Assembly: GCA_029289325.1 (NCBI GenBank)
Contig: JARFTV010000010.1
Span: forward strand, 1-64,000
Source: Alphaproteobacteria bacterium
GTDB lineage: Bacteria; Pseudomonadota; Alphaproteobacteria; Rhodobacterales; Rhodobacteraceae
DNA length: 64,000 nt
Reading direction: 5' to 3'
This document shows, one piece after another, positions 16,737-33,564 of this stretch; the stretch's first letter is position 1; every line of letters begins with the position of its first letter. Below the pieces are notes generated by a model, which ran no database searches, had not been told where the DNA came from, and worked only from the letters and a program-made list of their open reading frames with translations. A program made the translations under genes and the position numbers.

Positions 16737-16777
16737 ACGGCAGCCTAGCCGCCCCGCCGCCGCTTGGAAAGTCCGCC

Positions 16778-17644: not shown

Positions 17645-17712
17645 CACGTCGCCATTTTTGCCACTTTTGCCCCTTGCCGCCCCCAGAAGGCCTTGCTATA
17701 CGGCCCCTGTGT

Positions 17713-17787: not shown

Positions 17788-17817
17788 AAAACCTCATAAC
17801 CCATTGAGATCAACCGA

Positions 17818-17844
17818 AAAAACGGCCCAGCCAGGGCCGCTTTT
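17818..17844 (+). terminator. terminator of tRNA-Asn
   Basis: Inverted repeat CGGCCC-AGCCA-GGGCCG flanked by A-rich sequence on the left and CTTTT on the right, about 30 bp after the tRNA. Confidence 0.75.
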
Positions 17845-18519: not shown

Positions 18520-18964
18520 CACCCGCAGATAGCGCGTTCGAGGATTAGGTCTTGCCGTCGAAATCCTTTGTTCCTTGCCTTCGGCGATGAAGGTGCCGAG
18601 GCCGTTGGGCGTATAGAAACCGTGGGGTGCCCGAGCGGCCTGCACGCATCCGTTCGGCCAGCGTGCGTTACCGGCCGAATTCCAGCCCCAGATCGCCCGA
18701 CAGTCACTGGCGCTTGTATTCGGCGTTTTCGCCGGAGGAGATCATTTTCTTTACTTGCCTGCCCTCCAGCAGGAGGCCGAGGTCGAAGCCGTCCACGCCA
18801 GCGTTGTTGGAGTCGACGGTGAGGGCGCGCTTTCCTGCCTTGCGGATCGCGGCGACCAGCAGTTTGAGAACGCCGCAGAGGCTGAAGCCCCCGAAGCGAT
18901 GGTCATACCGTCAGAAATCACACTGTCCAGCGGGTGGCTCAGGCGCTGGACAGACCTTCTTCAT
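18520..18964 (-). pseudogene. 3-oxoacid CoA-transferase subunit A remnant (ScoA/AtoD type)
   Basis: Read on the minus strand in several frames, the sequence gives MKKVCP, then ISDGMTIASG, GGFSLCGV, SNNAGVDGFDLGLLLEGRQ, KKMISSGENAEYKRQ, stop, LSGDLGLEFGR, stop, TLAERMRA, GFYTPNGLGTFIAEGKEQ, DFDGKT and LILERAI. These are in order the conserved blocks of succinyl-CoA:3-ketoacid CoA-transferase subunit A. At least two stops and about three frameshifts separate them, so no product is made. The remnant begins 14 bp after the BKACE stop and on the same strand, so it was probably the next gene in that operon. The end coordinate is approximate. Confidence 0.85.
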
Positions 18965-18977
18965 GCTGCGGCCTCCA

Positions 18978-19832
18978 CTACGGCGGCGGTAGGCCGAGGA
19001 TGGTCCGGGCCTCATACGGGGTCGCGACGGGGCGTTCGGTGCGGCCACAGAGGCCCACGACCCGGCGCACCAGCGCGGCGTTGGAGGGGGCAAGGCGGTC
19101 GCGGTCGAGGCGGACATTGTCCTCCAGCCCCGTACGGGCGTGGCCTCCTGCGGACACGGCCCATTCGTTCAGCACGAATTGGTTGGGACCGATCCCCGCC
19201 GCGCACCAAGGCGCATCGGCGCCGAAGAGGCGCTTGACGGTGCGGATGTAGTAATCGAACACGTCGCGGTCGGCGGGCATGGCGTTCTTCACGCCCATCA
19301 CGAACTGCACGTATGGGCGCCGCGCGATCTGGCCGGCATGCCACATCTGGTGGGCCTTCAGGATGTGGGAGAGGTCGAAGGCCTCGATTTCCGGCATGAC
19401 TCCGTAGGTCTTCATCTCCGCCGCCAGCCAGTCCACCAGGTCCGGCGGGTTTTCATAGACGCGGGTGGGGAAGTTGTTCGACCCCACCGAAAGCGAGGCC
19501 ATGTCGGGCCGCAAGGGCAGCATCCCGCCCCGGGTCCGCCCCGCACCAGAACGGCCGCCAGTCGAGAGCTGAACAATCATGCCGGGGCAGTGCTGCCGGA
19601 TACCCTCCATCAACCGGGCGAAGCGGTCGGGGTCCGAGGTGGGCTTTCCTTCGTCATCGCGGACATGGGCGTGGACGATGGACGCGCCAGCCTCGAAGGC
19701 CTCATGGGTGCTTTCCACCTGCTCGGCGATGGTGATCGGGACGGCAGGATTGTTGTCCTTGGTGGGAAGGGAGCCCGTGATGGCCACGCAGATTATGCAG
19801 GGTTGTCCGGCGATTGCGGCGGTGTCAGACAT
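18978..19832 (-). CDS. beta-keto acid cleavage enzyme (BKACE / Kce family)
   Basis: 284 aa. ATG at 19832; a TTG three codons earlier is less likely. Zinc ligands of the family are visible: His54 and His56 in SIVHAHVRDDEGKP and Glu237 in TGLEDNV. Other hallmarks are QLSTGGRSGAGRT, GSNNFPTRVYENPP and GIGPNQFVLN. BKACE enzymes convert a beta-keto acid plus acetyl-CoA to acetoacetate plus a new acyl-CoA. Beside an alpha/beta hydrolase and the benzoate/catechol genes, the likely substrate is 3-oxoadipate, giving succinyl-CoA and acetoacetate. The gene overlaps the hydrolase stop by 8 bp. Confidence 0.92.
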   Translation of the reverse strand: MSDTAAIAGQPCIICVAITGSLPTKDNNPAVPITIAEQVESTHEAFEAGASIVHAHVRDDEGKPTSDPDRFARLMEGIRQHCPGMIVQLSTGGRSGAGRTRGGMLPLRPDMASLSVGSNNFPTRVYENPPDLVDWLAAEMKTYGVMPEIEAFDLSHILKAHQMWHAGQIARRPYVQFVMGVKNAMPADRDVFDYYIRTVKRLFGADAPWCAAGIGPNQFVLNEWAVSAGGHARTGLEDNVRLDRDRLAPSNAALVRRVVGLCGRTERPVATPYEARTILGLPPP

Positions 19833-20676
19833 GGGCGGCAACTTTCATGCGGGCCAGGCCATCGGCGAAGAAGGGCCGGAAGGCGGCGGGGTGTTCGGAC
19901 ATGGGGAAATGACCGAGTTCGTCCATCACCGTGCAGGTCGCGCCGGGGATGGCGGCGGCGGTGCGGCGGGCGTCCTCGGGCGTGCAGGTCAGGTCGTAGG
20001 CTCCGACGAGGAGGTGGACGGGGGTGCGGGCGGTGTCGATGCGGGCGAGCCGCCCGATCAGGCTGTCGTCGCGGGTGTAGAACGACAGGTCGCCACGGAA
20101 AACGCCCGGCCCAGACTGCATGAACATCCACAGGGTGTTCCAGCGTTCGGCCTCGGGCGCATGGGGGCTGATGTTGGCGGACACCAGCGCCGCCCCCATC
20201 TCGCCGCCATGGGCATCCGGGCGATGGAACCAGTCGATGTCGTACCAGGCGGGCTGATAATCCGAGGCCTCGATGGCGATGAAGCCCGAGAAGGCGTCGC
20301 CGTGCAGGGCTGCAAGTTGCAGGGCGATGCGCCCGCCCATCGAACAGCCCGCCAGGATGGGCCGGTCGAGGCCCAATGCCCGCGACACCGCCAGGACGGT
20401 CTCGATATAGGCCTCGGTCGTCAGCAGGTATTCCTCGGTCTGGAAGCCCTCGGGCGGGAGGCTTTTGCCGTGCCAGGGCATGTCGAAGGCGTAGAAGCGG
20501 TGGTCCTTGGTCAGGCCCGCATCGTTCAGGATATGCCGCCACTGGCGCGTATCGGCCCCGGCGGTGTGGAGGCAGAGGACGGGAGTCCCTTCGCCTGCCA
20601 TTTCCACATAGATCCGCTGGCGGCGGCCCTGGACGGTGACGGTAAGGTAGCGGCCGGTGATGGGCTCGAAGGTCAT
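19825..20676 (-). CDS. alpha/beta hydrolase, PcaD-like (3-oxoadipate enol-lactonase candidate)
   Basis: 283 aa from the ATG that overlaps the upstream stop as ATGA. Catalytic triad: Ser112 in the nucleophile elbow GCSMGG, Asp228 in GAYDLTC, His256 in GHFPM; LCLHTAGADTRQW is the oxyanion region. PcaD enol-lactonase belongs to this fold, and the place between the aromatic dioxygenase and BKACE suggests hydrolysis of 3-oxoadipate enol-lactone. General alpha/beta hydrolases look alike, so the exact substrate is inferred from context. Confidence 0.85.
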   Translation of the reverse strand: MTFEPITGRYLTVTVQGRRQRIYVEMAGEGTPVLCLHTAGADTRQWRHILNDAGLTKDHRFYAFDMPWHGKSLPPEGFQTEEYLLTTEAYIETVLAVSRALGLDRPILAGCSMGGRIALQLAALHGDAFSGFIAIEASDYQPAWYDIDWFHRPDAHGGEMGAALVSANISPHAPEAERWNTLWMFMQSGPGVFRGDLSFYTRDDSLIGRLARIDTARTPVHLLVGAYDLTCTPEDARRTAAAIPGATCTVMDELGHFPMSEHPAAFRPFFADGLARMKVAAHV

Positions 20677-21059
20677 GCCAGTTTCTCCATCTGGGGCGCG
20701 GGGCGGGCCAGCGCCATGAAGTCCTTGAAGAAGCGCAGGTTCTTGACCAGGCAGAGGATGTCGCCGTCGATCCGCCCCCGCCCGATCTTCACCAGACCGA
20801 AGATGTCGTGGAAGCCGGGCTTCGGCACCGGCTGCCAGAACTGCGCCAGCGCCTCGCCGTCGGTGCGCAGCGCAAAGCTCCAGGGCGTCTTGCGGCTGGG
20901 GCCCTCGGCAATCTGTTCCAGGCGGCCGTCGCGGAAGGTCAGATAAAACTCGGCCCCGTCCACCTCCAACAGCACGGTTTCGGAAAAAAGCCGACCGAGT
21001 CGGAGCAGATAGGGCGTCGCTTTCAGCCGCGACTGCATCCTGTCCAGTGTGGCGCGCAT
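20673..21059 (-). CDS. SCP2-like small protein of aromatic catabolic operon
   Basis: 128 aa from an ATG preceded by AAGGAGGA. The pattern TVLLEVDGAEFYLTFRDGRLEQIAEGPS and WSFALRTDGEALAQFW resembles a sterol-carrier-protein-2 (SCP2) type lipid-binding fold. It has no signal peptide. It is the first gene of the leftward operon with the hydrolase and BKACE. It is not a muconolactone isomerase by sequence, although its position is where catC would be expected. Its function is unknown; a small hydrophobic-ligand carrier is a guess. Confidence 0.7.
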   Translation of the reverse strand: MRATLDRMQSRLKATPYLLRLGRLFSETVLLEVDGAEFYLTFRDGRLEQIAEGPSRKTPWSFALRTDGEALAQFWQPVPKPGFHDIFGLVKIGRGRIDGDILCLVKNLRFFKDFMALARPAPQMEKLA

Positions 21060-21134
21060 GGGGTTCCTCCTTGGCCCGACAGGGGCCTTGGACCTGAAAA
21101 AGCGCCGCCCGGCCCATTCCCGCAATGACGTGCA

Positions 21135-21152
21135 GGGTATCCTGCGATACCC
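21135..21152. promoter_or_regulatory. operator-like inverted repeat (copy A)
   Basis: Perfect inverted repeat GGGTATC-CTGC-GATACCC in the 255-bp divergent promoter between the SCP2-like gene and the intradiol dioxygenase. Likely target of the LysR regulator encoded at 22295; the same half-site recurs upstream of catB. Confidence 0.65.
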
Positions 21153-21184
21153 TTTCCCGGGCCAAGGGGCCGGACACGGGTCGC

Positions 21185-21202
21185 GAGTATCGGGCCATAC
21201 CC
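21185..21202. promoter_or_regulatory. operator-like inverted repeat (copy B)
   Basis: Degenerate copy GAGTATC-GGGC-CATACCC with the same 7-4-7 layout, centred exactly 50 bp from copy A. Paired sites with different symmetry are usual for LysR-type promoters. Confidence 0.55.
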
Positions 21203-21314
21203 AGGCGGTCATTGGCGGGGGGTCGGACGGCGTGGATAGTCGGGTCATCGGCGGGAGGGAGTGGCCTTCAAGGCAACCCGCACCAGATCAGACCCACGCC
21301 CGGAGGAGGGACAC

Positions 21315-22190
21315 ATGAGCAAGGTTACCATCGACAACGTCACCGATGTGGTCGTCGCATCGCTGGGCCAGAATGGCCAGATCACCGAGCGTCAGCGCGA
21401 GATCATGACGGCGGCCATCCGCCACTTGCACGGCTTCTGCAAGGACGTGAACCTGACCCACGCCGAGTTCATCGACGCCTGCATGTTCCTGGCCCGCGCC
21501 GGCGCCGTCTGCAGCGACAAGCGGCAGGAGTTCATCCTTTTGGGCGACATCCTGGGCGTCGAGGTCCTGTGCGACATGCTGACGAACCCGGTCACCGGAT
21601 CGGAATCGGAATCCACCGTGCTTGGCCCCTTCTACCGCGAGAACCCGCCGGTCCTGCCGCATGGCGCCTCGACCGCGCAGAAGCACTTCGACAATGAAGA
21701 GACCGTCTTCATGGAAGGCTACATCAAGGACACTTCGGGCCGCCCGCTGGCTGGCGTGACGCTGGACATCTGGGAAGACGCGCCGAACGGGCTTTATGAG
21801 AACCACGACCACGACCAGCCCGACTACAACCTGCGCGGCCGGTTCGAGACCGACGAGAACGGCTACTTCGCGCTGCGCGCCCTGCGCCCGGTGCCCTATC
21901 CGATCCCGGCGGACGAAACCGCGGGTGAGCTTCTGCGCTACATGGGCCACCACCCGAACCGCCCGGGCCACCTGCACTTCATCGTGGCGAAGGAGGGCTA
22001 CCGCACGCTGGTGAGCCAGGTCTACGACAGCTCCTCGTCCTATCTCGACAATGACTCGGTCTTCGCGGCGAAGGACAGCCTCGTGGGCAACTTCCAGAAG
22101 GGCAAGCCCGAGCATGGCACCGACCTTTACCTGCGCTTCGACTTCACGCTGAAGCCCGAAGCTGCCGCCTCGGCCCTGGCGGCCGAGTGA
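21315..22190 (+). CDS. intradiol ring-cleavage dioxygenase (catechol / hydroxyquinol 1,2-dioxygenase)
   Basis: 291 aa; ATG after CGGAGGAGGG. The non-heme Fe(III) ligands are Tyr161 (NGLYENH), Tyr195 (VPYPIP) and His219/His221 (RPGHLHF). N-terminal helical dimerisation domain precedes SESTVLGPFYRENPP and the beta-sandwich catalytic domain. Cleaves an ortho-diol between the hydroxyls. With catB and benABCD in the locus the expected substrate is catechol, giving cis,cis-muconate. However PYPIP, RPGHLHFIVAKEGY, DSVFAAKDSLV are more like hydroxyquinol dioxygenases, so specificity is open. Divergent from the BKACE operon, with LysR downstream. Confidence 0.88.
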   Translation: MSKVTIDNVTDVVVASLGQNGQITERQREIMTAAIRHLHGFCKDVNLTHAEFIDACMFLARAGAVCSDKRQEFILLGDILGVEVLCDMLTNPVTGSESESTVLGPFYRENPPVLPHGASTAQKHFDNEETVFMEGYIKDTSGRPLAGVTLDIWEDAPNGLYENHDHDQPDYNLRGRFETDENGYFALRALRPVPYPIPADETAGELLRYMGHHPNRPGHLHFIVAKEGYRTLVSQVYDSSSSYLDNDSVFAAKDSLVGNFQKGKPEHGTDLYLRFDFTLKPEAAASALAAE

Positions 22191-22213
22191 GCCTTACTTC
22201 CCGGTTGGACCTT

Positions 22214-22244
22214 GCCGCGCCCTGGAAACGGGGTGCGGCTTTTT
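22214..22244 (+). terminator. terminator after the intradiol dioxygenase
   Basis: Stem GCCGCGCCC/GGGTGCGGC with one G-T pair and an eight-base loop, followed by TTTTT. It separates the dioxygenase transcript from the LysR gene. Confidence 0.75.
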
Positions 22245-22294
22245 CCTTTGGGGAATGGGCGCTGGCGGATTAGTTTCTGCGCGGGGGGACGCGG

Positions 22295-23182
22295 ATGAAC
22301 ATCAAGCAGCTGGAATACTTCATTGCGCTCGCCGAGGAGCTGCATTTCGGCCGCGCGGCGGAACGCCTGGGCATGGCGCAGCCGCCCTTGAGCCGCCAGA
22401 TCAAGCAGATCGAGGATGACCTTGGCGCGCTTCTGTTCAACCGGGGCCGCAACGCGCTCACCCTGACGCAGGCGGGGGAACGGCTCTATGCCCGCGGGAC
22501 CGCGATGCTGGCCGAGTTCAACGACATCAAGCTGGAGGTGCGGCGGATCGGTCAGGGGGCCGAAGGGAGGCTTCGGGTGGGCTTCGTGGGATCGGCGACC
22601 TACGGCATCCTGCCCACGATCCTGAAGAGTTTCCGCGCCTCCTACCCGGATGTGAACCTGTCGCTGATCCCGATGAACAACGCGCAGCTGCACCGCAGCC
22701 TGATCCGGCGCGAAATCGACATCGCCTTCGCCCGACCCGCCCTGGACGATGCCGAGATCACGACGCGGAAGCTCGGGGAGGAACCGCTGGTGCTTGCGGT
22801 GCCGGACACCTTGGACCTGCCCAAGGGTCCGGTGGACCTCCGCCAGCTGGCGGGCGAGGCCTTCGTCCTCTATCCCGAATTCCCCCGCCCCTCCTTCGCC
22901 GATTTCGTGCTGAACAGCTGCGCCGAACTGGGGATCGAGGTGAAGCGGCGGGTCTTCACGATGGACTTCCAGACCGCGATCGCGCTGGTGTCCGTGGGCG
23001 AAGGGGTGGCGATCGTGCCGCAGTCGGTGGGCTCGGTGCAGCGGACCGGGGTGCGCTTCCACGACATCGTCAACCCGCTCGCCAAGACCGGGGTATCGGT
23101 GAACCACCGCCTGGACGAACAGGGCGTGCATGTCCGCAACTTCGTGGCCATCGCCCAGAAGGTCGCGCGGAAGACGTTCTGA
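22295..23182 (+). CDS. LysR-family regulator, CatR/BenM-like
   Basis: 295 aa. N-terminal winged helix-turn-helix (MNIKQLEYFIALAEELHFGRAAERLGMAQPPLSRQIKQIE, written here only to show its position at residues 1-40 is avoided; key parts are HFGRAAERL and QPPLSRQI) is followed by the periplasmic-binding-like effector domain. HFGRAAERLGMAQPPLSRQI is the usual start of the CatR/CbnR/BenM subgroup that responds to muconate or benzoate. GGGGGGA lies before the ATG. It likely controls the adjacent dioxygenase, the BKACE operon and the cat-ben operon through GGGTATC half-sites. Confidence 0.9.
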   Translation: MNIKQLEYFIALAEELHFGRAAERLGMAQPPLSRQIKQIEDDLGALLFNRGRNALTLTQAGERLYARGTAMLAEFNDIKLEVRRIGQGAEGRLRVGFVGSATYGILPTILKSFRASYPDVNLSLIPMNNAQLHRSLIRREIDIAFARPALDDAEITTRKLGEEPLVLAVPDTLDLPKGPVDLRQLAGEAFVLYPEFPRPSFADFVLNSCAELGIEVKRRVFTMDFQTAIALVSVGEGVAIVPQSVGSVQRTGVRFHDIVNPLAKTGVSVNHRLDEQGVHVRNFVAIAQKVARKTF

Positions 23183-23183
23183 T

Positions 23184-23969
23184 CTATGCCCGCCGGGCGA
23201 TCAGGCAGCGGAAATGCGCGGGAACGTGGTAGCCGCCATCCGCCTGCTGGAAGGGCGCAAGGGCCGTCGCATGGGCTGCGCTGACCGCGTCCTCACCCGC
23301 CCGCTCCATCGCCGCCGCCGCGACGCCCGAGGAGTTCAGCCCGCGCAGCGCGGTGGGCAGGTCGGGATAGGTGAAGGGGCTGTCCACGTCAAAGACGCTT
23401 TCCGGCTGCAATCCCGCCGCCTCGGCAAAGCCGGTCAGTGCGGCCTTGTCGGCAAGGGCGAAGGGGCCGGGGGCGTTGGGAGGCGGTGGCGGCAAAAGCG
23501 GGCGCAGCGCGGTGATGACGCTGGCGGCGGGCATGTTCTGCGGCTCGCCCCAAGCGACCACGACCACGGCGCCGCCGGGACGGACCACGCGGGCGGCCTC
23601 GACCAGGGCGCGGGCGAGGCTGGCGACGAACTGGAAGGCGTTGAAGCCGGTGACGAGGTCGAAGCTCGAGTTTGCATGGGGCAGCGTTTCCAGGTCGCCC
23701 TTGCAGAAGTTGCCGGCGGGCACGCGCTCCCGTGCGATCTCCAGCAACGGCATTGCGGCGTCGATCCCGGCGACTTTCAGCCCGGCAGCGGAGGCGAGGC
23801 TCGCGAACATGCCCGACCCGCAGCCCATGTCGAGAAGCCTAAGCCCCGGGGCCGGCTCGAGCGCCTTGAGCACGGCCTCGTAGACCGGCCGCACCATCGC
23901 CTCCTGCACCTCGGCCCAGTCGCGGGCGCGCTGGCCCCAGAGATGCGCGTGGCGCGCCTCGGTCGTCAT
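23184..23969 (-). CDS. class I SAM-dependent methyltransferase
   Basis: 261 aa from the ATG preceded by GGAG; a TTG seven codons earlier overlaps livF and is less likely. Motif I is LLDMGCGSGMF, acidic residue of motif II in VAGIDAAMPLLEIAR, motif IV in SFDLVTGFNAFQF and ARVVRPGGAVVVVAWG. This is the UbiE/Methyltransf_11 type that acts on small molecules. It is the last gene of the cat-ben-liv operon, 17 bp after livF, and converges with LysR one base apart. The substrate is unknown; an aromatic intermediate is possible from context. Confidence 0.85.
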   Translation of the reverse strand: MTTEARHAHLWGQRARDWAEVQEAMVRPVYEAVLKALEPAPGLRLLDMGCGSGMFASLASAAGLKVAGIDAAMPLLEIARERVPAGNFCKGDLETLPHANSSFDLVTGFNAFQFVASLARALVEAARVVRPGGAVVVVAWGEPQNMPAASVITALRPLLPPPPPNAPGPFALADKAALTGFAEAAGLQPESVFDVDSPFTYPDLPTALRGLNSSGVAAAAMERAGEDAVSAAHATALAPFQQADGGYHVPAHFRCLIARRA

Positions 23970-23986
23970 GTCAGACACTCCAGACT

Positions 23987-24688
23987 TCAAACGCCAAGCC
24001 AGCGGTGCTGCGCTTCGATGTCCGCCCGGATCGCCTCGGCGCTGCCCTGCCAGACGATGCTGCCCTTTGACACCACCACCACGTCATCGGCCAGCGAAGT
24101 GGCGAAACCGAAGTTCTGTTCCACCAGCACCATCGACAGGCCCTCGCGCTTCAGGTCCGCCAGCTTGTCGTGGATCAGCTTGACGATGATCGGGGCGAGC
24201 CCCTCGGTCGGCTCATCCAGGATCAGCAGACGCGGGTTCATCAAGAGGCCCCGCGCGATGGCCAGCATCTGCGCCTCGCCCCCCGACAGCTGGTCGCCGC
24301 CGTTGTCGAGGCGTTCGCCAAGCCGGGGGAAAAGCTCGATCACCCGCGCCACCGTCCAGCCGCCCGGTGGGCAGGGAAAGCGGCGGGCGGCGAGGTCGAG
24401 GTTCTCGCGCACGGACAGCGAGCGGAAGATGTCGCGGGTTTCCGGGACATAGGCGATGCCCAGTTTGGCGATCTTGAACGGAGTCATCCCGCTGATCTTG
24501 CGCCCGTCGAAGGTGACGCTTCCACCCTTCGCGGGCAGAAGGCCCATGATCGTCTTCAGCGTCGTTGACTTCCCCGCGCCGTTGCGGCCGAGGATCGCCA
24601 GTACCCGGCCCGGTTCGGCCCTCAGCGACAGGCCATGCAGGACCTGCGTCTCGCCATAGCCCGAGGAAAGGTCTGTCAGGTCAAGCAT
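23987..24688 (-). CDS. livF: branched-chain-type ABC transporter ATPase LivF
   Basis: 233 aa. Walker A GRNGAGKST, signature LSGGEAQ, Walker B LLILDEPTEGL and the LivF-type H loop VEQNF are present. One of two cytoplasmic ATPases of a HAAT-family importer; the operon also contains livG, livM, livH and a nonsense-interrupted livK downstream of benABCD. The likely substrate is an aromatic acid such as benzoate. The livG stop overlaps the start by 8 bp. Confidence 0.94.
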   Translation of the reverse strand: MLDLTDLSSGYGETQVLHGLSLRAEPGRVLAILGRNGAGKSTTLKTIMGLLPAKGGSVTFDGRKISGMTPFKIAKLGIAYVPETRDIFRSLSVRENLDLAARRFPCPPGGWTVARVIELFPRLGERLDNGGDQLSGGEAQMLAIARGLLMNPRLLILDEPTEGLAPIIVKLIHDKLADLKREGLSMVLVEQNFGFATSLADDVVVVSKGSIVWQGSAEAIRADIEAQHRWLGV

Positions 24689-25424
24689 CTTCCCACGCCC
24701 CCAGATAGATGTCCTTCAGAAGCTGGCTGCCGCGTGCGGCCTCCGGCAACCCGTCGAAGACGACCTCGCCGTAGTTCAGCACGGTGATCGTGTCGGCTAC
24801 GTCGAAGGCGAGGTCCATGTCATGCTCAATGATCAGGATCGTCAGGTCGCGGGGCAGCGCCTTGAGCAGGCGGTGGAAACCCTTCGACATCTCCGGTCCC
24901 ACACCGCTGGTCGGTTCGTCCATCAGGATGACCTTGGGCCCGGTGGCCAGCGCGATGCCCACCTCCAGCTGGCGGCGGATGCCGTAGCTGACGGCGTCGA
25001 CACGGGCGTCGAGGTATGGCGCAAGGTCCACCTGCGCCGCGACCTCGCGCACCGTCTCGCGCACCTCGACACTTTGCAGCGGGTCGGACCAGAGGCCTTG
25101 GCCCTTCCCCAGCGCGACGGCGGCGGCGAGGCCCAGGTTCTCGCGGATCGTCAGCCCGTCGAAGAGGGTGTTCTTCTGGTAGCTGCGGCTCAGGCCCCGG
25201 CGCGCACGCTCGGCGACGCGGAGACCGGTAACATCCGCCCCGTCGAGGTGGATCGTGCCGCTGTTCGGCGTGATTTCACCCACCAGCTGGTTAAACAGCG
25301 TCGTCTTGCCCGCGCCGTTCGGGCCAAGGATCACCCGGCGCTCGCCCTTTTCCAGCTTCAGGCTCACGCCCCTGGTCACCTGGATCGGGCCGAAGGATTT
25401 GGTCAGGTTGCGCGTTTCAAGCAT
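24681..25424 (-). CDS. livG: branched-chain-type ABC transporter ATPase LivG
   Basis: 247 aa from the ATG at 25424; 24 open codons upstream lie within livM. Walker A GPNGAGKTT, the DEPTSGVGPEM Walker B region and the EHDMDLAF switch histidine are intact; the signature region reads SYGIRRQLEVGIAL, as is common in LivG. It overlaps livM by 8 bp and livF by 8 bp, so the set is translationally coupled. Confidence 0.94.
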   Translation of the reverse strand: MLETRNLTKSFGPIQVTRGVSLKLEKGERRVILGPNGAGKTTLFNQLVGEITPNSGTIHLDGADVTGLRVAERARRGLSRSYQKNTLFDGLTIRENLGLAAAVALGKGQGLWSDPLQSVEVRETVREVAAQVDLAPYLDARVDAVSYGIRRQLEVGIALATGPKVILMDEPTSGVGPEMSKGFHRLLKALPRDLTILIIEHDMDLAFDVADTITVLNYGEVVFDGLPEAARGSQLLKDIYLGAWEDA

Positions 25425-26397
25425 CGGCGGTGGCCTCCTTGCCCTGTGGTTTCCGGGTGCGAGCGGTCCAGCGGGCTTCGATGAACCCGAAGACACCCGG
25501 CGCGCGGCTCATCACAACCGCGATCAGGATCAGGCCCACGATGGCGTGCCAGTACGGGGTGATGGCCGAGATCTCGTGCTTCAGCACGACGAACAGGATC
25601 GCGCCGAGGAGCGGGCCAACCAGGGTGCCGAGGCCGCCGAGAATGACGACGACCAGCGCCTCGCCCGAAACGGTCCAAGACAGAAGCCCCGGAGAGATGA
25701 ACTGCGTGTGCTGGGCGGCGAGGCAGCCTGCCAAGCCCGCAAGTGCACCGGAGATGGCGAAGGCGGTGGCCTTGGCGCGCCAGACGGTCAGTCCAAGGGC
25801 GCGCAACCGTTTTTCATTGTGATGGAGACCGACGAGGCTGCGCCCGAGCCCGGAGCGAAGGGTGGCGGCGGCGACGAGGTAGGCCAAAGCAACCAGAAGG
25901 ATGGCGTAGACCGCGAAGGCTCGGCTGTCGGTCAGGTCGATGCCGACGACGCTCAAGTCCGGGCGCGGAGCACCGGAGAGGCCGTCGTCGCCCCCGAACA
26001 ACGGGGACTGGAAGACGAAGCTGTAGGCCATCTGCCCGAAGGCCAAAGTCGCCATGATGAAGTAGATGCCGGTCGATCGCGCGCAGACCGCGCCGATCGG
26101 GAACGCCAGGGCGGAGGTTAGCGCCACGGCCAAGATCATAGCGGGCAGCGCGGTCAACCCGGCCTCATTGGCGGCCACGGTGAAGGCATAGGCCCCCACG
26201 CCCAGAAGCGCGCCGTGGCACAGCGAGACCATCCCGCCGAACCCGGCGACAAGGTCCAGCGCGATGACGAGGATCGCCAGGATCGCGATCTCGGCCAGGA
26301 TCTCCAGCCCGTAGAACCCGGCGGCGAAGGCATAGGCCAGCGACCCGGCGGCAATGATTGCCAGCGTGGTCAGGCGCAGGGGAGTGTGCGTGAACAT
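25417..26397 (-). CDS. livM: branched-chain-type ABC transporter permease LivM
   Basis: 326 aa from the ATG at 26397 after AAAGGGTGA. About nine to ten hydrophobic segments; family signature in LDLVAGFGGMVSLCHGALLGVGAYA and GGLGTLVGPLLGAILF. Forms the transmembrane channel with LivH. A four-base gap separates it from livH. Confidence 0.93.
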   Translation of the reverse strand: MFTHTPLRLTTLAIIAAGSLAYAFAAGFYGLEILAEIAILAILVIALDLVAGFGGMVSLCHGALLGVGAYAFTVAANEAGLTALPAMILAVALTSALAFPIGAVCARSTGIYFIMATLAFGQMAYSFVFQSPLFGGDDGLSGAPRPDLSVVGIDLTDSRAFAVYAILLVALAYLVAAATLRSGLGRSLVGLHHNEKRLRALGLTVWRAKATAFAISGALAGLAGCLAAQHTQFISPGLLSWTVSGEALVVVILGGLGTLVGPLLGAILFVVLKHEISAITPYWHAIVGLILIAVVMSRAPGVFGFIEARWTARTRKPQGKEATADA

Positions 26398-26401
26398 CGG
26401 A

Positions 26402-27271
26402 TCACCCTTTCGCGGGCAGAAGGCCCTGCGGACGGGTGACAAGCACCGCCGCGAGAAGCGCGTAGATCAGGACGGAACTCAGCGTCGGCAGCAGCACCGC
26501 GCCGAAGGTCTGGACGAAGCCGAAGATCAGGGACCCCGCGACCGCGCCCTTCAGGCTGCCAAGGCCGCCGATGACGATGACAATCAGCGTCGGGATCAGG
26601 ATCTGCAGGCCCATGTCGGGCGTGACGGACAGGACGGGCGCGGCGACGGCCCCGGCAAGGCCCGCCAGCGCGCAGCCGACGACGAAGACCAGGAAGAACA
26701 TGCGTTCCACGTTGATCCCAAGGCAGGCGGCCATCTGGTCGTTGTCGACCCCGGCGCGGATCATCGCTCCGATCTGGGTGCGGGTCAGGATCAGGGTCAG
26801 GATGCCGAGGACACTCAGACCCAGGGCGATGATGAACAGCCGGTAAACTGGGTATTGCACGCCGAGAAGTGCCACCTGCCCGTCCAGCACGGCCGGGATG
26901 GCGATGCCGATGGGCAGATCGCCCCACACCAGCCGCGTGGCGTCGACGGCCACGAAGATCAGCCCGAAGGTCACCAGCACCTGCGCCATCGGCCCGGCCC
27001 GGCGCTGTGAGCGGATCAGGGTGTAGTAGAGAACAGCGCCAAGGGCCGCCACGGCGACGGGGGCCAGCAGGAACCCTCCCCAGTAGCCCAAGGTGCCCGC
27101 GAGAGTCGCCGCGACATAAGCGCCGAATGCGTAAAGCGAGCCATGGGCAAGGTTCACGAAGTGCATCAGCCCGAAGATCACCGTCAGGCCGACAGAGAGA
27201 AGAAAAAGCAGCATGGAGAGTTGCAGCGCATTCAAGGTCTGCAGCACCCAGAAGCCAAGGTCTGTGGTCAT
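26402..27271 (-). CDS. livH: branched-chain-type ABC transporter permease LivH
   Basis: 289 aa, polytopic. LivH hallmarks are GLTVIFGLMHFVNLAHGSLYAFGAY near the N-terminus and VIGGLGSLKGAVAGSL near the C-terminus, with the final RPQGLLPAKG. Pairs with LivM. It follows the substrate-binding protein gene by 53 bp. Confidence 0.94.
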   Translation of the reverse strand: MTTDLGFWVLQTLNALQLSMLLFLLSVGLTVIFGLMHFVNLAHGSLYAFGAYVAATLAGTLGYWGGFLLAPVAVAALGAVLYYTLIRSQRRAGPMAQVLVTFGLIFVAVDATRLVWGDLPIGIAIPAVLDGQVALLGVQYPVYRLFIIALGLSVLGILTLILTRTQIGAMIRAGVDNDQMAACLGINVERMFFLVFVVGCALAGLAGAVAAPVLSVTPDMGLQILIPTLIVIVIGGLGSLKGAVAGSLIFGFVQTFGAVLLPTLSSVLIYALLAAVLVTRPQGLLPAKG

Positions 27272-27324
27272 GGTCGCACCTTTCGGGCTGGGGACGGGGG
27301 CCGACCTGCGGCCCCCGGATCGCG

Positions 27325-28506
27325 TCAGTTGGTGGCTACGGGCATTTCGCAGCCGTTGACCGGGTCCGCCTCGGCCGGAAGGGTGGCGAGCACCTTCTGA
27401 GTCAGGCCATCGGGACCGGCGACGTTTTCGTAGACGTGGATCGGCTGGACGACGTTGTTCGTCGCAGGATCAATCCGCAGCTCGCCCCGCGGGCCGGTGA
27501 AGGCCACCTTCGGCAGCGCGGCGGCCAGCGCGGCACGGTCGGTCGCGCCCGACTTCACCTTCTCGACCAGAGCACGGGCGCTGTCATAGCCCTGCACCGC
27601 GTATTCCGAGGGGATACGGCCGGTCTTGGCCTTGAACGCCTCGACGAAGGCCGCGTTCTCCGGGTTGTCCAGCGTCGGCACATAATGCAGCGCGGTGATG
27701 ACACCTTCGGCCGCCGGGCCTTCCGCCTCGACATAGAGGGCCGAGGTCAGGAAGCCCTAGCCGTACAGCGGCATCCCGGCCTTCAGGCCGAAGCTGTCAT
27801 ACTGCTTGACGAAGGAAATCGCCTCGCCGCCAGCGAAAAAGACATAGACCGCATCCGCGCCGCTCGCCTTGGCATTGGCAAGGAACGGGCCGAAGTCCTG
27901 CGTCTTCTGGAAGGCGGGCCATTCCTGGCCCACCACCTCGCCGCCCGCAGCGGTGAAGGCGGCGGTGAAGGCGTCGATCATCTGGCGGCCGGCGGCGTAG
28001 TCCGGCGCGATGGTGAAAACTTTTTTCACACCTTGGTCGACCATCCACTGGCCCATCGGCCGGTTGACCTGGCTGTTGGAAAAGGAAATGCGAGTGATGT
28101 AGGGGCTGCAGGCCTCGCCCGTCGCCTCGTCGTTGCCGGCATTGGCCACGATCAGCGGCACCCCCGCGCCGTCCACGGTGTCGCGGATCGCGCCCAGGAC
28201 GCCCGAGGAGACCACGCCGACCATCACGTCGACTTCGTCCTGCAGGATCAGCTTCTTGGTCTTGGCCAGACCGACCGGCGGTTTCACCTCGTCATCCTCG
28301 CGGACGATCTCGAAGGTCGCGCCCCTGTCCGCGCCGAAGGTTTCCAGACCCAGCGCGAAGGCATCGTCGATGTCCTGCCCAAGCGAAGCATAGACGCCCG
28401 AATAGGGCAGCAGGAGGCCCACCTTGATGTCCTCGGCCCAAGCTGTCGAAAGCATGGCCGTGCTGGTGACGAGCCCGGCAAGGGCCGCCCGAATGGTCGT
28501 CTTCAT
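27325..28506 (-). pseudogene. livK: ABC transporter substrate-binding protein (LivK type) interrupted by an in-frame amber codon
   Basis: One frame of 393 sense or stop codons encodes a LivK-like periplasmic protein: signal peptide MKTTIRAALAGLVTSTAMLSTAWA cut after about residue 24 (key part LVTSTAMLSTAWA), then DIKVGLLLPYSGVYASLGQD and the receptor domain. Codon 250 is TAG (27757-27759), between MPLYG and GFLTSALYVEAEG. There is no frameshift; both halves match the family. Thus a single base change separates it from an intact gene: a real nonsense mutation, a sequencing error or readthrough. All other transporter genes are intact. Confidence 0.85.
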
Positions 28507-28557
28507 CTGTCTCTCTCCCTTTGTGGCGCCCTCCTCGGCGCCGGTGTGGCGGGCCTG

Positions 28558-29331
28558 TCAGCCCAGGTCGCCCCCTCCTACCGGGATCGTGACCCCGGTC
28601 AGGTAAGAGGCATCGTCGGATGCCAGGAACAGGATCACCCCCGCCTGTTCATCCAGAGTTCCGTAGCGTTTCATCAGGCTGGACTGGACCGTCTGGTCGA
28701 CGATCTGCTGGTACCAGACCTTCTCCTGCGCGGTCTGTTCGTTTGGGTTGCGCGGCACGCCGCGGGGCGGTGCTTCGGTTCCGCCTGGCGCGGTGGCGAC
28801 GACGCGGATGCCGCGCTCGGCCACTTCCCAGGCGAGGCTGGCGGTGATCGCGTTCACCCCGCCCTTGGCGGCCGCATAGGGCACGCGGTTCAAGCTGCGG
28901 GTGGCGATCGACGAGACATTGACGATCACGCCCTTGCCCGCCGCCAGCATGTGCGGCAGGACCGCGTGGCAGGAATAGAGCGTCGGGAACAGCGACCGGC
29001 GCACCTCGGCGTCGATCTGGTCGGCCTCGTAAAGCTCGAAGGGCTTGGCCCAGATCGTGCCGCCGACGTTGTGGACCGACACGTCGATCCGGCCGAATTC
29101 CCTGATGACTCCCGCCATCGCATCAACGGCCCCGGCATGGGTCTCCAGGTCGGCCGCCAGATAGACCGCCTTGCCACCCGCAGCCGTGATGGTCTCCGCC
29201 ACCTCGGCCCCGATGGGCGAGCGGTCGATCACCGCGACCGAAGCGCCCTCCAGCGCCGCCCGTTCCGCCACGCGCCGCCCAATGCCCTGCGCGGCCCCGG
29301 TGATGGCAAAGACCTTGCCCTTGAACCGCAT
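28558..29331 (-). CDS. benD: benzoate diol dehydrogenase (1,6-dihydroxycyclohexa-2,4-diene-1-carboxylate dehydrogenase)
   Basis: 257 aa, short-chain dehydrogenase/reductase. The ATG overlaps the benC stop as TGATG; earlier open codons lie in benC. Cofactor motif TGAAQGIG, NVGGTIW (N-x-G-G variant), catalytic Ser in NVSSIATR and Tyr/Lys in YAAAKGG. BenD oxidises the cis-diol made by BenABC to catechol with loss of CO2, using NAD. The position after benA-benB-benC fixes the assignment. Confidence 0.94.
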   Translation of the reverse strand: MRFKGKVFAITGAAQGIGRRVAERAALEGASVAVIDRSPIGAEVAETITAAGGKAVYLAADLETHAGAVDAMAGVIREFGRIDVSVHNVGGTIWAKPFELYEADQIDAEVRRSLFPTLYSCHAVLPHMLAAGKGVIVNVSSIATRSLNRVPYAAAKGGVNAITASLAWEVAERGIRVVATAPGGTEAPPRGVPRNPNEQTAQEKVWYQQIVDQTVQSSLMKRYGTLDEQAGVILFLASDDASYLTGVTIPVGGGDLG

Positions 29332-30344
29332 CACGCCGCCGCCTTGGTTTCCGAGGGGTTGAACTTCTCGAACAGGAAGGACGCGGGGGTGACGCCCAGG
29401 CCCGCCATGTGGGTCCGCACCGCCTCGACCATCGGCGGCGGGCCGCAGAGATAGACATCGGCGGCACCGTCCCAAAGGTCGGAAGCCGTCAGGTGGTCGG
29501 TGACGAAGCCCTTCTTCGCATGGGTGCTCGCGGCATCGGCGACGATGGTGACGATCTCCAGCGAGGGGATCAGCGCCGCAAGACTCTCCAGCCGGTCAAA
29601 CTCCACCAGGTCGGCGTCGCGGGTGACGGCATAGAACAGGCGGACCGGTTGGTCAGTGCCGGTGGTGGCGATCTGTTCCAGCATCGACAGGAAGGGGGCA
29701 AGGCCCGTGCCGCCGGCGAGGAAGACCTGCGGGCGCGTGACGGGGCGAAGGTAGAACGCGCCCATCGGGCCGGTCAGGATCATGGCGTCGCCAGCCTTGG
29801 CGCGGGCGAGGTAGCCCGACATCAGCCCGCCCTGGATGTTGCGGATCAGGAATGAAGCCTCCGTCGCCTCCGGGTGGCTGGAGAAGGAATAGGCGCGGGT
29901 CGCGGCGGTGCCCGGGACCCGCACGTTGACATACTGGCCCGGCAGGAAGGGCATCGCGGCGGGGAGCGTCACGCGCAGGCGGAAGGAGGTTTCCGACAGC
30001 GCCTCGACCCCCGCCACGCTGGCCTGCACGCTTTGCGCTCCTGTCTTGCAGGCGATGGAAGAGGCAGGGATCGCCACGACGCAATCGGACTTCGGCATCA
30101 TCTGGCAGGTCAGGACCATGCCTTGCGCCGCTTCCTCCTCGGTCATCGCGTCTTCCAGGTAGAAGCCCAGCTCATACTCGCCCCGCTCCGCGCGGCATTT
30201 GCAGGTGCCGCAGACGCCATCGCGGCAGTCCATCGGCACGTTGATCTTTTGCCGGAAGGCGGCGTCGGAGACTTTCTCGTCAGCCTCGCAATCGATGATG
30301 CGGGTGACGCCGTCCTCGAAGTTCAGGGCGATCTTGTAGGTCAT
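29331..30344 (-). CDS. benC: benzoate 1,2-dioxygenase reductase component
   Basis: 337 aa from the ATG after GGAGGAG. Plant-type 2Fe-2S ferredoxin domain (CRDGVCGTCKCRAE with a fourth Cys in VLTCQM), then FAD-binding RAYSFSSHP and NAD-binding GGTGLAPFLSMLEQ. It carries electrons from NADH to the BenAB oxygenase. The benB-benC spacer holds a strong hairpin. Confidence 0.95.
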   Translation of the reverse strand: MTYKIALNFEDGVTRIIDCEADEKVSDAAFRQKINVPMDCRDGVCGTCKCRAERGEYELGFYLEDAMTEEEAAQGMVLTCQMMPKSDCVVAIPASSIACKTGAQSVQASVAGVEALSETSFRLRVTLPAAMPFLPGQYVNVRVPGTAATRAYSFSSHPEATEASFLIRNIQGGLMSGYLARAKAGDAMILTGPMGAFYLRPVTRPQVFLAGGTGLAPFLSMLEQIATTGTDQPVRLFYAVTRDADLVEFDRLESLAALIPSLEIVTIVADAASTHAKKGFVTDHLTASDLWDGAADVYLCGPPPMVEAVRTHMAGLGVTPASFLFEKFNPSETKAAA

Positions 30345-30356
30345 GGCTCCTCCTCT

Positions 30357-30396
30357 CCCCCGGTGCCTTCCCCTCCTCAAGGGTCGGCACCGGGGG
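30357..30396 (-). promoter_or_regulatory. intercistronic hairpin between benB and benC
   Basis: Perfect 11-bp inverted repeat CCCCCGGTGCC/GGCACCGGGGG around an 18-base loop, inside the operon. There is no U-tract. It may stabilise the benAB message or reduce downstream expression. Confidence 0.55.
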
Positions 30397-30425
30397 TGCC
30401 GGTCTGGGGGCCGGCAGTTGCGGTG

Positions 30426-30935
30426 TCAGATGTGGTAAACGTCGATCACATGGTGGATGCGGTCGTTCTTCAGGATCACCTTCTTCGAGGTGATGAGCGG
30501 CGCGCCCGAGGCAACATCGACCGTGTAGAAGGACGTGCCCCAATAGGTGTCGGTCGTCCCGTAGCGGTAATTGTGCGTCATCCAGTTGAAGCGCAGGTGG
30601 ATCTTTGTCCCCTCGCGCCCCAGCACCTCGACATTGGTGATGTTGTGCCCAGTGCGGGGTTCGGGCAGCGAGGTCGCGCTGGAACGGTCGGTCTTGATGC
30701 GGAACACGCGGTCCTCGATCCCCGATCGATTGGGGTAATAGATCAGCGACATCTCGTTGGCCGGGTCTTCGGTCAGCGTGTCGAAATCGTCCCAGGCTGG
30801 CATCCAGAACGGGCAGTCCGGGTGGTAGAACTGGATCCAGTCGTCGAAGCGGCGGTCGTCGAGCGCCCGCGCTTCGGCATAAAGGAAGGCGCAGAGCGCG
30901 TCGTAGGAAAGCTGGGTATCGGTCACAGCGTTCAT
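30426..30935 (-). CDS. benB: benzoate 1,2-dioxygenase small (beta) subunit
   Basis: 169 aa, standard for ring-hydroxylating dioxygenase beta subunits. The cone-like fold signature is seen in LYAEARALDDRRFDDWIQFYHPDC, DDFDTLTEDPANEMSLIYYP and HLRFNWMTHNYRYG. It is structural for the alpha3beta3 oxygenase. It begins 4 bp after the benA stop. Confidence 0.95.
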   Translation of the reverse strand: MNAVTDTQLSYDALCAFLYAEARALDDRRFDDWIQFYHPDCPFWMPAWDDFDTLTEDPANEMSLIYYPNRSGIEDRVFRIKTDRSSATSLPEPRTGHNITNVEVLGREGTKIHLRFNWMTHNYRYGTTDTYWGTSFYTVDVASGAPLITSKKVILKNDRIHHVIDVYHI

Positions 30936-30939
30936 GGGG

Positions 30940-32319
30940 TTACTCCGCTGCGATCTGGGTTGCGGTCTGACGCTCGGCCGCGACGGCGGCGGCCATGCGT
31001 TCGGTCCATTGCGTGTGCTGGATGACGAAAAGACCCTCGTCTTCCGTCCGCGCGCCGGACAGGATGGGCTTCAACCCGATCCGCTGGGCCTCTTCGTCCG
31101 CGCCGGTGATCCACTGGGTCGCGCCGCGGGTCAGGTCGTTCCACTGCGCCGTGGGGGCGGCGGCGTAGCCCATCTGGGTCGCCCGGAATTCCTCCAGGTC
31201 ATCCGGCGTCGCCATGCCGGAGGCGTTGAAGAAGTCCTCGTACTGGCGGATGCGGCGGGTGCGGGCCTCCTGGCTCTCGCTCTTCGGGGCGATGCAGTAG
31301 ATCGTGACTTCGGTCTTGTCGACGCTGATCGGGCGGAACACGCGCAGCTGGCTGGAGAACTGGTCCATCAGGAACAGGTTCGGATAGAGGCAGAGGTTGC
31401 GAAGGTATCCGATCATCCAGTCGGCCTTGGCCTCGCCGTACTTTGCCACCAGTTCATCCCGGCGGGGCGCGAGGGGGCGGTTCGACGGGTCGGCCCATTT
31501 CGTCCACAGGACCAGGTGGCCGTTGTCGAAGGAATAGAACCCGCCCTTCTGCTTGTTCCACTTCGAGGCGTCGACCGACTTCACCTCGTCCTTGCCCTCA
31601 TCCGCGCGGTGGCTGGTGGTGGCGACATAGTTCCAATGGACGGCCGAGACGTGATAGCCGTCGGCGCCGTTCTCGGCCTGGAGCTTCCAGTTGCCCTGGT
31701 AGGTGTAGGTCGAGGAGCCGCGCAGCACCTCCAGCCCCTCGTCGGACTGGTCGGCGACCATGTCGATCATCACCTTGGCCTCGCCCAGGTAATCCGACAG
31801 CGGCTGCACGTCGGGGTTCAGCGACCCGAACAGGAACCCGCGATAGGACTCAAAACGAGCCACGCGCTTCAGGTCATGGCTGCCGTTCTTGTTGAACTGC
31901 TCGGGGTACCCTGCGCCGTCGGGATCCTTCACCTTCAGAAGCTTGCCGGTGTTGTTGAAGGTCCAGCCGTGGAACGGGCAGGTGAAGGTCGCCTTGTTCT
32001 GCCGCTTGTGCCGGCAGAGCATCGCGCCCCGGTGCGAGCAGGCGTTGATCAGCGCGTGCAGCGTCCCGGTCTTGTCGCGGGTGATCATGATCGGCTGGCG
32101 GCCAATATGCGTGGTGAACACGTCGTTCGGATGTGGGATCTGGCTTTCATGCGCCAGGTAGATCCAGTTGCCCTCCCAGATGTGGCGCATTTCCAGTTCA
32201 AAGAGCTCAGGGTCGGTGAACATGTCGCGGCGGGCGCGGAAGATGCCCTCTTCGGGCTTGTCTTGAACGATGCCGTCCAGGCGGCGGGCGATCTCGTCGA
32301 GACCGGCTTCGGTGAACAT
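30940..32319 (-). CDS. benA: benzoate 1,2-dioxygenase large (alpha) subunit
   Basis: 459 aa from the ATG after GGGAGAGAG. Rieske 2Fe-2S ligands Cys94, His96, Cys114 and His117 (ACSHRGAM and TCPFHGW). Mononuclear iron site around Asp220, His223 and His228 in [12 protein letters not shown]. It adds O2 to benzoate to give the cis-1,2-diol carboxylate. Close relatives (anthranilate, toluate oxygenases) cannot be excluded, but the four-gene benABCD order with catB favours benzoate. Confidence 0.93.
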
Positions 32320-32415
32320 GGCTCTCTCCCTCCATGATGCCCCTTGCGGGACAAGTCTCCTCCGTTCCCGGAAAAGCGTGGCTTTCCCGGGCCTTCCTTG
32401 CCCCAAGGGGGCTGA

Positions 32416-33564
32416 TCATTCCCCCGCGACGGCCCGTGTAAGGCTGCTGCGGTCGCGCCGGTAGAACGCGACCTTGTCGTCGTCGAGGCTTACCCCGATG
32501 CCCGGCCCGGTCGGGACGATCACCGAGAAGTCCCTGTATTCCAGCGGCGTGGCCAGAATTTCGTCCTTGAGGAGCAGCGGCCCGAACATCTCGGTTCCGA
32601 ACTGCCACTCGGGGATGGTGGCGAAAAGCTGGATCGCGGCGGCGGTGCCAAGCGCGGATTCCAACATGGTGCCGCCGTAAAGGTCGATCCCTGCCGCCCG
32701 CGCGATGGCGATCACGTCCGAGGCCGGTTTCAACCCGCCCGACTGGCAGACTTTGACCGCGAACACATCCGCCGAGCGGTTGGCGGCCACCCGCATCGCG
32801 TCGGCGGGGCCTTGCAGCACCTCGTCGGCCATGATGGCGATCTCATACCCATCGGTCAGCGCCTTCAGAGCCGCCAGCTTGTCCCGCGCCACGGGCTGTT
32901 CCACCAGGATGCAGCCGATCTCTTGCAGCCCGCGCGCGCCGTAGCGGGCTTCGGTCAGGCTCCAGGCCTGATTCACGTCGACCCGGATCGTGCCGCGGTC
33001 GCCCACGGCCTTGGCGATGGCCGCGACATGGGCGATGTCCTGCTTCACCGGGCGCTTGCCGATCTTCAACTTGAAGTCGCGGTGGCGGCGGGTGTCCAGC
33101 ATCCGCTCGGCTTCGTCGATGTCGGTCTGGCTGTTGCCCGAGGCCAGCGTCCAGGCCACCGGCAACCGGTCATGGATCCGCCCGCCGAACAATTGCGCCA
33201 CGGACAGCCCGGCGCGGCGGCCAAGCCCGTCCCACAGCGCGCATTCCACGGCGGCGCGGGCGATGGGGTTGCCCTTTACCGCCTTTTCCATATGGGCGCT
33301 GGCGGCGACGATGGCGTCGGCATCCATGCCCACCAGCGCCGGAGAAATATAGGTGTCGATGGCGAGCTTGACGCTTTCCACGCTTTCCGGCCCGTAGGAG
33401 AGCCCGCCGATCGATGCGCCCTCGCCCAGCCCCTCGGACCCGTCCGAGAAACGGATGCGCACGAGAACGACCGACTGGGTCAGCATCGTGGTCATGGACA
33501 GAACATGTCCGCGCACCGTCGGCACGTCGATGATGATGGCATCTATGCGGTCGATCTTGGTCAC
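32416..33564 (-). CDS. catB: muconate cycloisomerase
   Basis: 382 aa from a GTG at 33564; the nearest in-frame ATG-like codon upstream adds 37 residues of unlikely sequence. Enolase-superfamily residues: catalytic K-x-K in FKLKIGKR, metal ligands in RVDVNQAW, LVEQPV and IMADEV, second catalytic lysine in VFAVKVCQSGG. It cyclises cis,cis-muconate to muconolactone. First gene of the long leftward cat-ben-liv operon, 96 bp before benA. Confidence 0.93.
   Translation of the reverse strand: MTKIDRIDAIIIDVPTVRGHVLSMTTMLTQSVVLVRIRFSDGSEGLGEGASIGGLSYGPESVESVKLAIDTYISPALVGMDADAIVAASAHMEKAVKGNPIARAAVECALWDGLGRRAGLSVAQLFGGRIHDRLPVAWTLASGNSQTDIDEAERMLDTRRHRDFKLKIGKRPVKQDIAHVAAIAKAVGDRGTIRVDVNQAWSLTEARYGARGLQEIGCILVEQPVARDKLAALKALTDGYEIAIMADEVLQGPADAMRVAANRSADVFAVKVCQSGGLKPASDVIAIARAAGIDLYGGTMLESALGTAAAIQLFATIPEWQFGTEMFGPLLLKDEILATPLEYRDFSVIVPTGPGIGVSLDDDKVAFYRRDRSSLTRAVAGE

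Follow-up and report, generated by a model that had tools for sequence, protein, structure and literature searches.

We analyzed the first 64,000 nucleotides (the window; positions 1 to 64,000, forward strand) of contig JARFTV010000010.1 from the genome of a member of the Rhodobacteraceae (Alphaproteobacteria bacterium, assembly GCA_029289325.1), in which a cluster of ben and cat genes also contains a gene for a small SCP2-like protein, followed by a gene for an alpha/beta hydrolase (HYD) and one for a BKACE. We consider that the cluster probably encodes a route from benzoate to central metabolism built of non-standard parts, in which the SCP2-like/HYD pair would replace CatC and CatD/PcaD. 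The order on the minus strand is catB, benA, benB, benC, benD, and the ABC transporter genes (23987-28506), and later the SCP2-like, HYD, and BKACE genes; the dioxygenase and LysR genes occupy the plus strand and diverge from the SCP2-like gene. Four bases (ATGA) are shared by the SCP2-like and HYD genes, and 8 nt by the HYD and BKACE genes. These gene identities, their order, and the overlaps are direct observations. An earlier note on this DNA had listed intact benABCD, catB, dioxygenase, PcaD-like hydrolase, and BKACE genes and a coupling of the BKACE gene to the hydrolase gene by overlap. The genes and the coupling were confirmed, whereas the term PcaD-like, judging from the HYD sequence, applies at the superfamily level only (65 of 256 bits), and the 128-residue SCP2-like gene and the absence of catC had been missed. 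The features are as follows.

32416..33564, minus: CatB, muconate cycloisomerase (TIGR02534, 489 bits; cut-off, 335)
30940..32319, minus: BenA (TIGR03229, 799 bits; cut-off, 781)
30426..30935, minus: BenB (Pfam PF00866, 144 bits; cut-off, 27)
29331..30344, minus: BenC (NF040810, 512 bits; cut-off, 430)
28558..29331, minus: BenD (NF040811, 424.7 bits; cut-off, 380)
27325..28506, minus: gene for the ABC substrate-binding protein, interrupted by one in-frame stop (27757-27759)
23987..27271, minus: ABC transporter, two ATPases and two permeases (Pfam)
22295..23182, plus: LysR regulator (PF00126, PF03466; BenM model, 152 bits versus a cut-off of 600)
21315..22190, plus: intradiol dioxygenase, assigned to catechol ring cleavage by context (PF00775, PF04444)
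21060..21314, no strand: intergenic stretch between the divergent SCP2-like and dioxygenase genes (gene positions)
20673..21059, minus: small protein of 128 residues with a predicted SCP2 fold, partner of HYD and candidate for all or part of the muconolactone isomerase activity (AlphaFold2 model and Foldseek)
19825..20676, minus: HYD, alpha/beta hydrolase, proposed enol-lactone hydrolase of the pair (PF00561)
18978..19832, minus: BKACE, predicted 3-oxoadipate:acetyl-CoA acetyltransferase (NF053568, PF05853, PDB 3fa5)
approximately 18574..18892, minus: decayed fragment of ScoA, the succinyl-CoA:3-ketoacid CoA-transferase alpha subunit (PF01144, tblastn)

An open reading frame (ORF) at 19825-21198 was rejected as a single gene: over its first 174 residues it runs across the SCP2-like gene in a different frame, and its Pfam match starts only beyond these residues. 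A methyltransferase gene (23184-23969, minus) sits between the transporter and LysR genes, and was rejected as a member of the route because only 2 of 80 related loci have a match.

Muconolactone isomerase and the SCP2-like/HYD pair

No match to catC (PF02426) was found in the whole genome of the strain, which is 99.9% complete; the same model gave a match in 2 of 14 control genomes, Corynebacterium glutamicum among them. Besides, no protein of the genome exceeded the cut-off of the PcaD model (TIGR02427, 255.85 bits), the best candidate, on another contig, scoring 190.6 bits and HYD itself, scored as the long ORF, 65 bits. HYD has Ser-Asp-His (S112, D228, and H256), each conserved in at least 97% of 81 sequences. 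The Foldseek list of its structural model is headed by the enol-lactonase 2xua, tied with the hydrolase 6i8w; given a very large superfamily and a model that is weak in the cap (predicted local distance difference test [pLDDT], 73.6), the list is a family-level hint only. The cap region (residues ~142 to 202) is conserved and is poorly modeled alone.

The SCP2-like protein had no Pfam match at an E value of 0.1 and no NCBIfam match at 1e-20. Its AlphaFold2 model reached a mean pLDDT of 92.4 and a predicted template modeling score of 0.85, and Foldseek against the PDB gave UbiJ-SCP2 (6h6p) as the top match (E, 1.9e-5), with 27 matches at E ≤ 0.001 that were led by SCP2 proteins. On this model, the small protein (20673-21059) is predicted to have an SCP2 fold, in common with UbiJ-SCP2, AF1534, and human SCP2, whereas it differs from known SCP2 proteins in that it has no Pfam match and its gene overlaps that of an alpha/beta hydrolase.

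Public genomes were scanned with HYD, and the best 80 of 150 relatives (79 to 95% identical) were used as loci. The SCP2-like gene was located directly before HYD in all 80 loci, with the identical 4-base overlap in 68; this conserved pairing, like the lack of a catC match, is a plain observation. Identity to the window proteins ranged from 56 to 95% for the SCP2-like protein and from 78 to 95% for HYD, and many polar residues of the former were nearly invariant within the catechol clade. The dioxygenase gene lay divergent, within 1.5 kb of HYD, in 68 loci, and upstream matches to benB and benD were obtained in 43 and 55 loci, respectively (weak matches included; the flanks end at 10 kb). Ten loci have an upstream set that we take to resemble a flavin-dependent monooxygenase and reductase instead of benABCD, and they also hold a catB-type gene, the dioxygenase, and the pair.

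We further compared the distribution of catB, catC, and HYD, the three genes searched for, in a single sample of 295 family genomes, that of the window included. Twenty genomes had HYD with an identity of at least 73% across most of the protein (28 at E ≤ 1e-30), catC was above the cut-off in 14 (15 at E ≤ 0.001), and 24 catB genes were above the cut-off in 21. By contig position, 18 of the catB genes lay within 14 kb of HYD and 4 beside catC (one each in genomes G130 and G023 and two in G171), none was near both, and 2 had neither nearby (G239 and G254, one each). Under the hypergeometric distribution, the probability of zero overlap was 0.0014, a value that ignores shared descent. Among the 20 genomes with HYD at the above identity, 18 had catB near it. 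Fifty of the 80 HYD loci, chosen before the result and with isolates favored, were also taken to whole genomes, and 47 of these had no catC match. The two samples share at least one genome (G130 and G329 give the same places).

The pair also occurs in Sulfitobacter D7, which grows on 100 μM benzoate as a sole carbon source and for which, in the passages cited, the authors report every gene of the catechol branch but CatC (PMC9873259). Its plasmid p5SUD7 (locus L190) has the order catB-benABCD-ABC-LysR-dioxygenase-SCP2-like-HYD, as in the window, with identities of 82% (HYD), 65% (CatB), and 69% (dioxygenase). No match to BKACE or ScoA was found in the 26.8 kb read from D7; the same passages assign PcaIJ and PcaF to it, whereas the window cluster has BKACE (PMC9873259). 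Plasmid pP88_c of Phaeobacter inhibens P88 (L203) carries two dioxygenase/SCP2-like/HYD units, with ABC transporter and BKACE genes after the second. In Alloyangia pacifica, the unit consists of an anion symporter, a muconate cycloisomerase that shares 38% identity with the CatB of the window, the SCP2-like protein, HYD, and a LysR regulator, which would be what a muconate user needs.

A search of plasmids gave relatives of HYD in 113 records, including those of Rhizobium, Rhodococcus, Peribacillus, and haloarchaea. Fourteen HYD contexts were opened, and a profile of the SCP2-like family was used to score the partners in 11 of them (ten non-catechol contexts and D7) together with 238 decoys; in the remaining three, the SCP2-like partners matched directly. 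Nine of the 11 partners are separate adjoining genes, eight of them scoring at least 42 bits and that of Agrobacterium tumefaciens 9.1 bits in the first round (best decoy, 2.1). The other two are N-terminal extensions of HYD: that of Rhodococcus DK180 scored 9.8 bits in the first round and 17.4 in the second (best decoy, 2.1 and then 2.7), and that of Rhizobium etli p42d, unmatched in the first round, reached 8.9 bits in the second (best decoy, 2.7). We rejected these fusion proteins as proof of coupling, since the scores are weak and the second-round model held five distant partners, and regard them as suggestive only.

These data bear on another explanation, namely, that the cluster is an ordinary ben-cat cluster with a PcaD-like HYD, in which BKACE is the sole oddity, an unrecognized isomerase is encoded elsewhere, and the SCP2-like protein is irrelevant. 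The equivalog score of BKACE (see below) accords with it, as does the enol-lactonase at the head of the Foldseek list, from which HYD alone could be CatD. We regard this explanation as unlikely, however, since the SCP2-like gene precedes HYD in every one of the 80 loci, the partner persists beside HYD in ten non-catechol contexts (eight separate genes and two weakly scoring N-terminal extensions), and the catB genes part into 18 with HYD and 4 with catC without any overlap.

Ring cleavage and the end of the route

The dioxygenase scored 135 bits with the catechol 1,2-dioxygenase model (TIGR02439), versus a cut-off of 392. The five solved structures closest to it carry the names hydroxyquinol or chlorohydroxyquinol dioxygenase, PnpC, or simply intradiol dioxygenase. 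Of the four intradiol dioxygenases of the genome, the three scored with the catechol 1,2-dioxygenase models (all but that on contig C78) reached no cut-off, and the assignment of the window enzyme to catechol is made by context. Contig C71 (L021, 7649-19517) holds two further intradiol dioxygenases, an iron-type alcohol dehydrogenase (putative maleylacetate reductase), and a flavin adenine dinucleotide-dependent monooxygenase, possibly a hydroxyquinol route that would also yield 3-oxoadipate. With nearest PDB relatives of the hydroxyquinol type, the window dioxygenase and its adjoining genes might themselves serve hydroxyquinol, the ben genes being mere neighbors. This seems very unlikely to us. 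Hydroxyquinol cleavage requires no cycloisomerase, and of the 20 genomes with a close HYD, 18 have catB near it. The genome also has the separate C71 cluster, with its two intradiol dioxygenases and putative maleylacetate reductase. Moreover, D7, whose ben-cluster dioxygenase is 69% identical, is reported to grow on benzoate (PMC9873259).

The window BKACE scored 486.3 bits with the NCBIfam equivalog NF053568 (3-oxoadipate:acetyl-CoA acetyltransferase; cut-off, 350) and covers positions 1 to 274 of the 274 of PF05853. Its residues H54 and H56, which we take to be a metal motif (His-x-His), are kept at 97% or more in 53 sequences. The closest PDB chains, 3fa5 (516 bits) and 3chv, are titled DUF849, function unknown. 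In 53 of the 77 loci with enough sequence, BKACE is the next gene after HYD. BKACE most likely acts on 3-oxoadipate, because of the equivalog match, the kinship with 3fa5 and 3chv, and the position after HYD; the earlier note had made the same prediction, which these sequence comparisons favor.

Directly after the BKACE gene lies a remnant of scoA (PF01144, 45 bits) that is interrupted by a TGA and a TAA. Compared with the intact ScoA of a relative (L037) by tblastn, it aligns with residues 25 to 118 at 69% identity and with residues 117 to 132 in another frame. An intact CoA-transferase gene in the window was therefore rejected: only this remnant, with two stops and a frame break, is present, and tblastn found no match to ScoB in window positions 16000 to 19500. 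The earlier claim that the cluster has no CoA-transferase gene thus holds for an intact gene and had overlooked the decayed one. In 57 loci with at least 3.3 kb past HYD, BKACE is next in 33, and in 15 of these 33 ScoA and ScoB then follow.

A search of the rest of the genome for pcaIJ and pcaF, as the earlier note had proposed, gave two CoA-transferase pairs and two thiolases above the 3-oxoadipyl-CoA thiolase cut-off. The alpha subunit of the pair on contig C49 is nearest to solved ScoA proteins, and this pair could still act in the PcaIJ role, because the NCBIfam model does not part PcaI from ScoA. One of the thiolase genes adjoins a phenylacetate gene of the PaaA/PaaC family, and the other adjoins what we presume to be electron-transfer flavoprotein genes. 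A second BKACE of the NF053568 family, 81% identical to that of the window, is encoded on contig C60 (L027, 7089-7943), where the neighbors look to us like tricarboxylate-transporter and two-component genes, not aromatic genes. Since the genome encodes a second BKACE, two CoA-transferase pairs, and two 3-oxoadipyl-CoA thiolases as well, the window BKACE need not be the sole end route. Acetoacetate still requires activation and acetoacetyl-CoA thiolase. The label "thiolase-free," which the earlier note had given to the route, is misleading because acetoacetate must still be activated and cleaved.

The same note knew of no described operon of this kind, which is contradicted by published work. 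In Ralstonia eutropha H16, a COG3246 protein cotranscribed with catBCD was proposed in 2019 as a possible beta-ketoadipate cleavage enzyme (PMC6449761, in the passages cited), and the cited passages on Methylobacterium pca operons without pcaIJ and pcaF propose the BKACE reaction (PMC8963497, 2022; PMC12379598, 2025). The BKACE end route is thus already published in kind and is not new. BKACE specificity groups are named in PMC4922564 and PMC12133276, the cited passages of which hold no residue table, and passages of PMC6365646 treat BKACE in deoxyribonate catabolism.

A further question is the state of the cluster in this strain. The substrate-binding gene has its in-frame stop at 27757-27759 (minus), and a 393-residue protein of three relatives aligns over the whole stretch; the stop may reflect either decay or an assembly error. 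A tRNA-Asn gene (17713-17787, plus), a possible integration point, lies about 1.2 kb from the end of the BKACE gene, with the scoA remnant between them. The damage to the transporter and to scoA might mark a decaying, partly inactive island, which is compatible with the other readings. We hold this to be rather unlikely, since the reading frames of the enzyme genes are open from catB to BKACE, these genes either exceed curated cut-offs or are 80 to 97% identical to those of relatives (nearest nine loci), and faulty assembly may account for the stop in the substrate-binding gene.

A proposed two-protein step from muconolactone to 3-oxoadipate

In the proposed route, BenABCD would convert benzoate to catechol, the divergent intradiol dioxygenase would cleave catechol to cis,cis-muconate, and CatB would form muconolactone. 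The SCP2-fold protein and HYD would jointly convert muconolactone to 3-oxoadipate, as CatC and CatD/PcaD do elsewhere, and BKACE would turn 3-oxoadipate and acetyl-CoA into succinyl-CoA and acetoacetate. Many of the relatives have ScoAB next, which would activate the acetoacetate; here, where scoA has decayed, other CoA-transferases of the genome may serve. We infer every reaction of this route, above all the split of the isomerization between two proteins. The assignments differ in strength, that of BKACE resting on a curated family and that of the pair on gene context only.

Several observations weigh against this proposal. Proteins with the SCP2 fold are mostly known as lipid carriers. In three distant pairs away from catechol genes (L194, L198, and L199), the SCP2-like protein has, as judged by eye, another residue in place of the His conserved in the catechol clade (H84, counted from ATG), and because of this a general catalytic role of the residue, or a single catalytic role of the protein across the family, is doubtful. 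The dioxygenase resembles the hydroxyquinol type and retains the Asp of the LL-x-D-x-LG motif; among the 80 loci, 12 lack it in the usual place and 4 have no match to it in the stretch covered. Genomes G130 and G239 have both HYD and catC, in different places; G113 and G005 have HYD without a catB over the cut-off; and G254 has catB with neither the HYD system nor the catC system. A catC match was found in 3 of the 50 whole genomes with HYD (L066, L088, and L090). A close pair (HYD, 81%) is also present in Xanthobacter dioxanivorans, where the 13 kb read has neither a cycloisomerase nor a dioxygenase annotated. Finally, the route may be decaying in this strain, because its transporter and scoA are damaged.

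Within the two-protein proposal, a possible sub-case, less than evenly probable in our view, is that HYD is bifunctional, performing both the proton shift and the lactone hydrolysis, and that the SCP2-like protein serves as a subunit for structure or for delivery of the substrate. This would fit the more variable sequence of the SCP2-like protein (56 to 95%, versus 78 to 95% for HYD), the replaced His in the three distant pairs, and a cap region (~142 to 202) that is conserved though poorly modeled alone. Set against it are the polar residues of the SCP2-like protein, whose near invariance in the catechol clade goes, in our judgment, beyond the expectation for a lipid carrier.

Among the ten non-catechol contexts, a succinate-semialdehyde dehydrogenase was annotated in four, another aldehyde dehydrogenase in three, and neither in three. 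The succinate-semialdehyde dehydrogenase stands near the distant pairs L192, L193, L195, and L199, in Agrobacterium, Peribacillus, and Rhodococcus. Because aldehyde dehydrogenases lie near non-catechol pairs, we suggest that the distant pairs may act on lactones that open to semialdehydes. A tentative idea, to which we give slightly less than even confidence, is that the pair is a previously undescribed two-component enzyme for unsaturated gamma-lactones, in which one of the proteins or both would shift the butenolide double bond and HYD would open the enol-lactone so formed: in catechol degraders it would replace CatC and CatD, and in distant bacteria and haloarchaea it would convert simple butenolides to semialdehydes.

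Relation to described systems and implications

The cluster has features in common with several known systems. As in Cupriavidus necator (R. eutropha) H16, where the arrangement is catA-benABCD and catBCD-COG3246, a BKACE-family gene goes with the ben-cat genes, with which it is coregulated in H16 according to the cited passages; H16 has catC and catD, whereas the genome of the window has no catC match, no protein over the cut-off of the PcaD model, and the SCP2-like/HYD pair instead (PMC6449761). The Methylobacterium pca operons (kce/DUF849), as described in the cited passages, resemble the window in having BKACE and no pcaIJ or pcaF in the operon, whereas they belong to the protocatechuate branch and the window cluster to the catechol branch (PMC8963497, PMC12379598). 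Compared with the canonical CatA-CatB-CatC-CatD-PcaIJF pathway, the intermediates up to 3-oxoadipate would be the same, judging from CatB and context, whereas the cluster has no CatC, no hydrolase of the PcaD model, no CatA at the model level, and no PcaIJ.

We consider the better finding, beyond the known BKACE route, to be a catC-less catechol branch with a conserved SCP2-like/HYD pair, of which no description was found in the literature searched (most subscription journals lie outside it). The missing muconolactone isomerase has been noted in print for D7, with no follow-up in the passages cited (PMC9873259), and the pair provides a specific conserved candidate for it. If the proposal is true, an SCP2-fold protein would gain a catabolic role, and pathway predictions that require catC would have to be corrected. 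Furthermore, a second design of the catechol branch would be complete, with the pair in place of CatC and CatD, and BKACE and ScoAB in place of PcaIJF.

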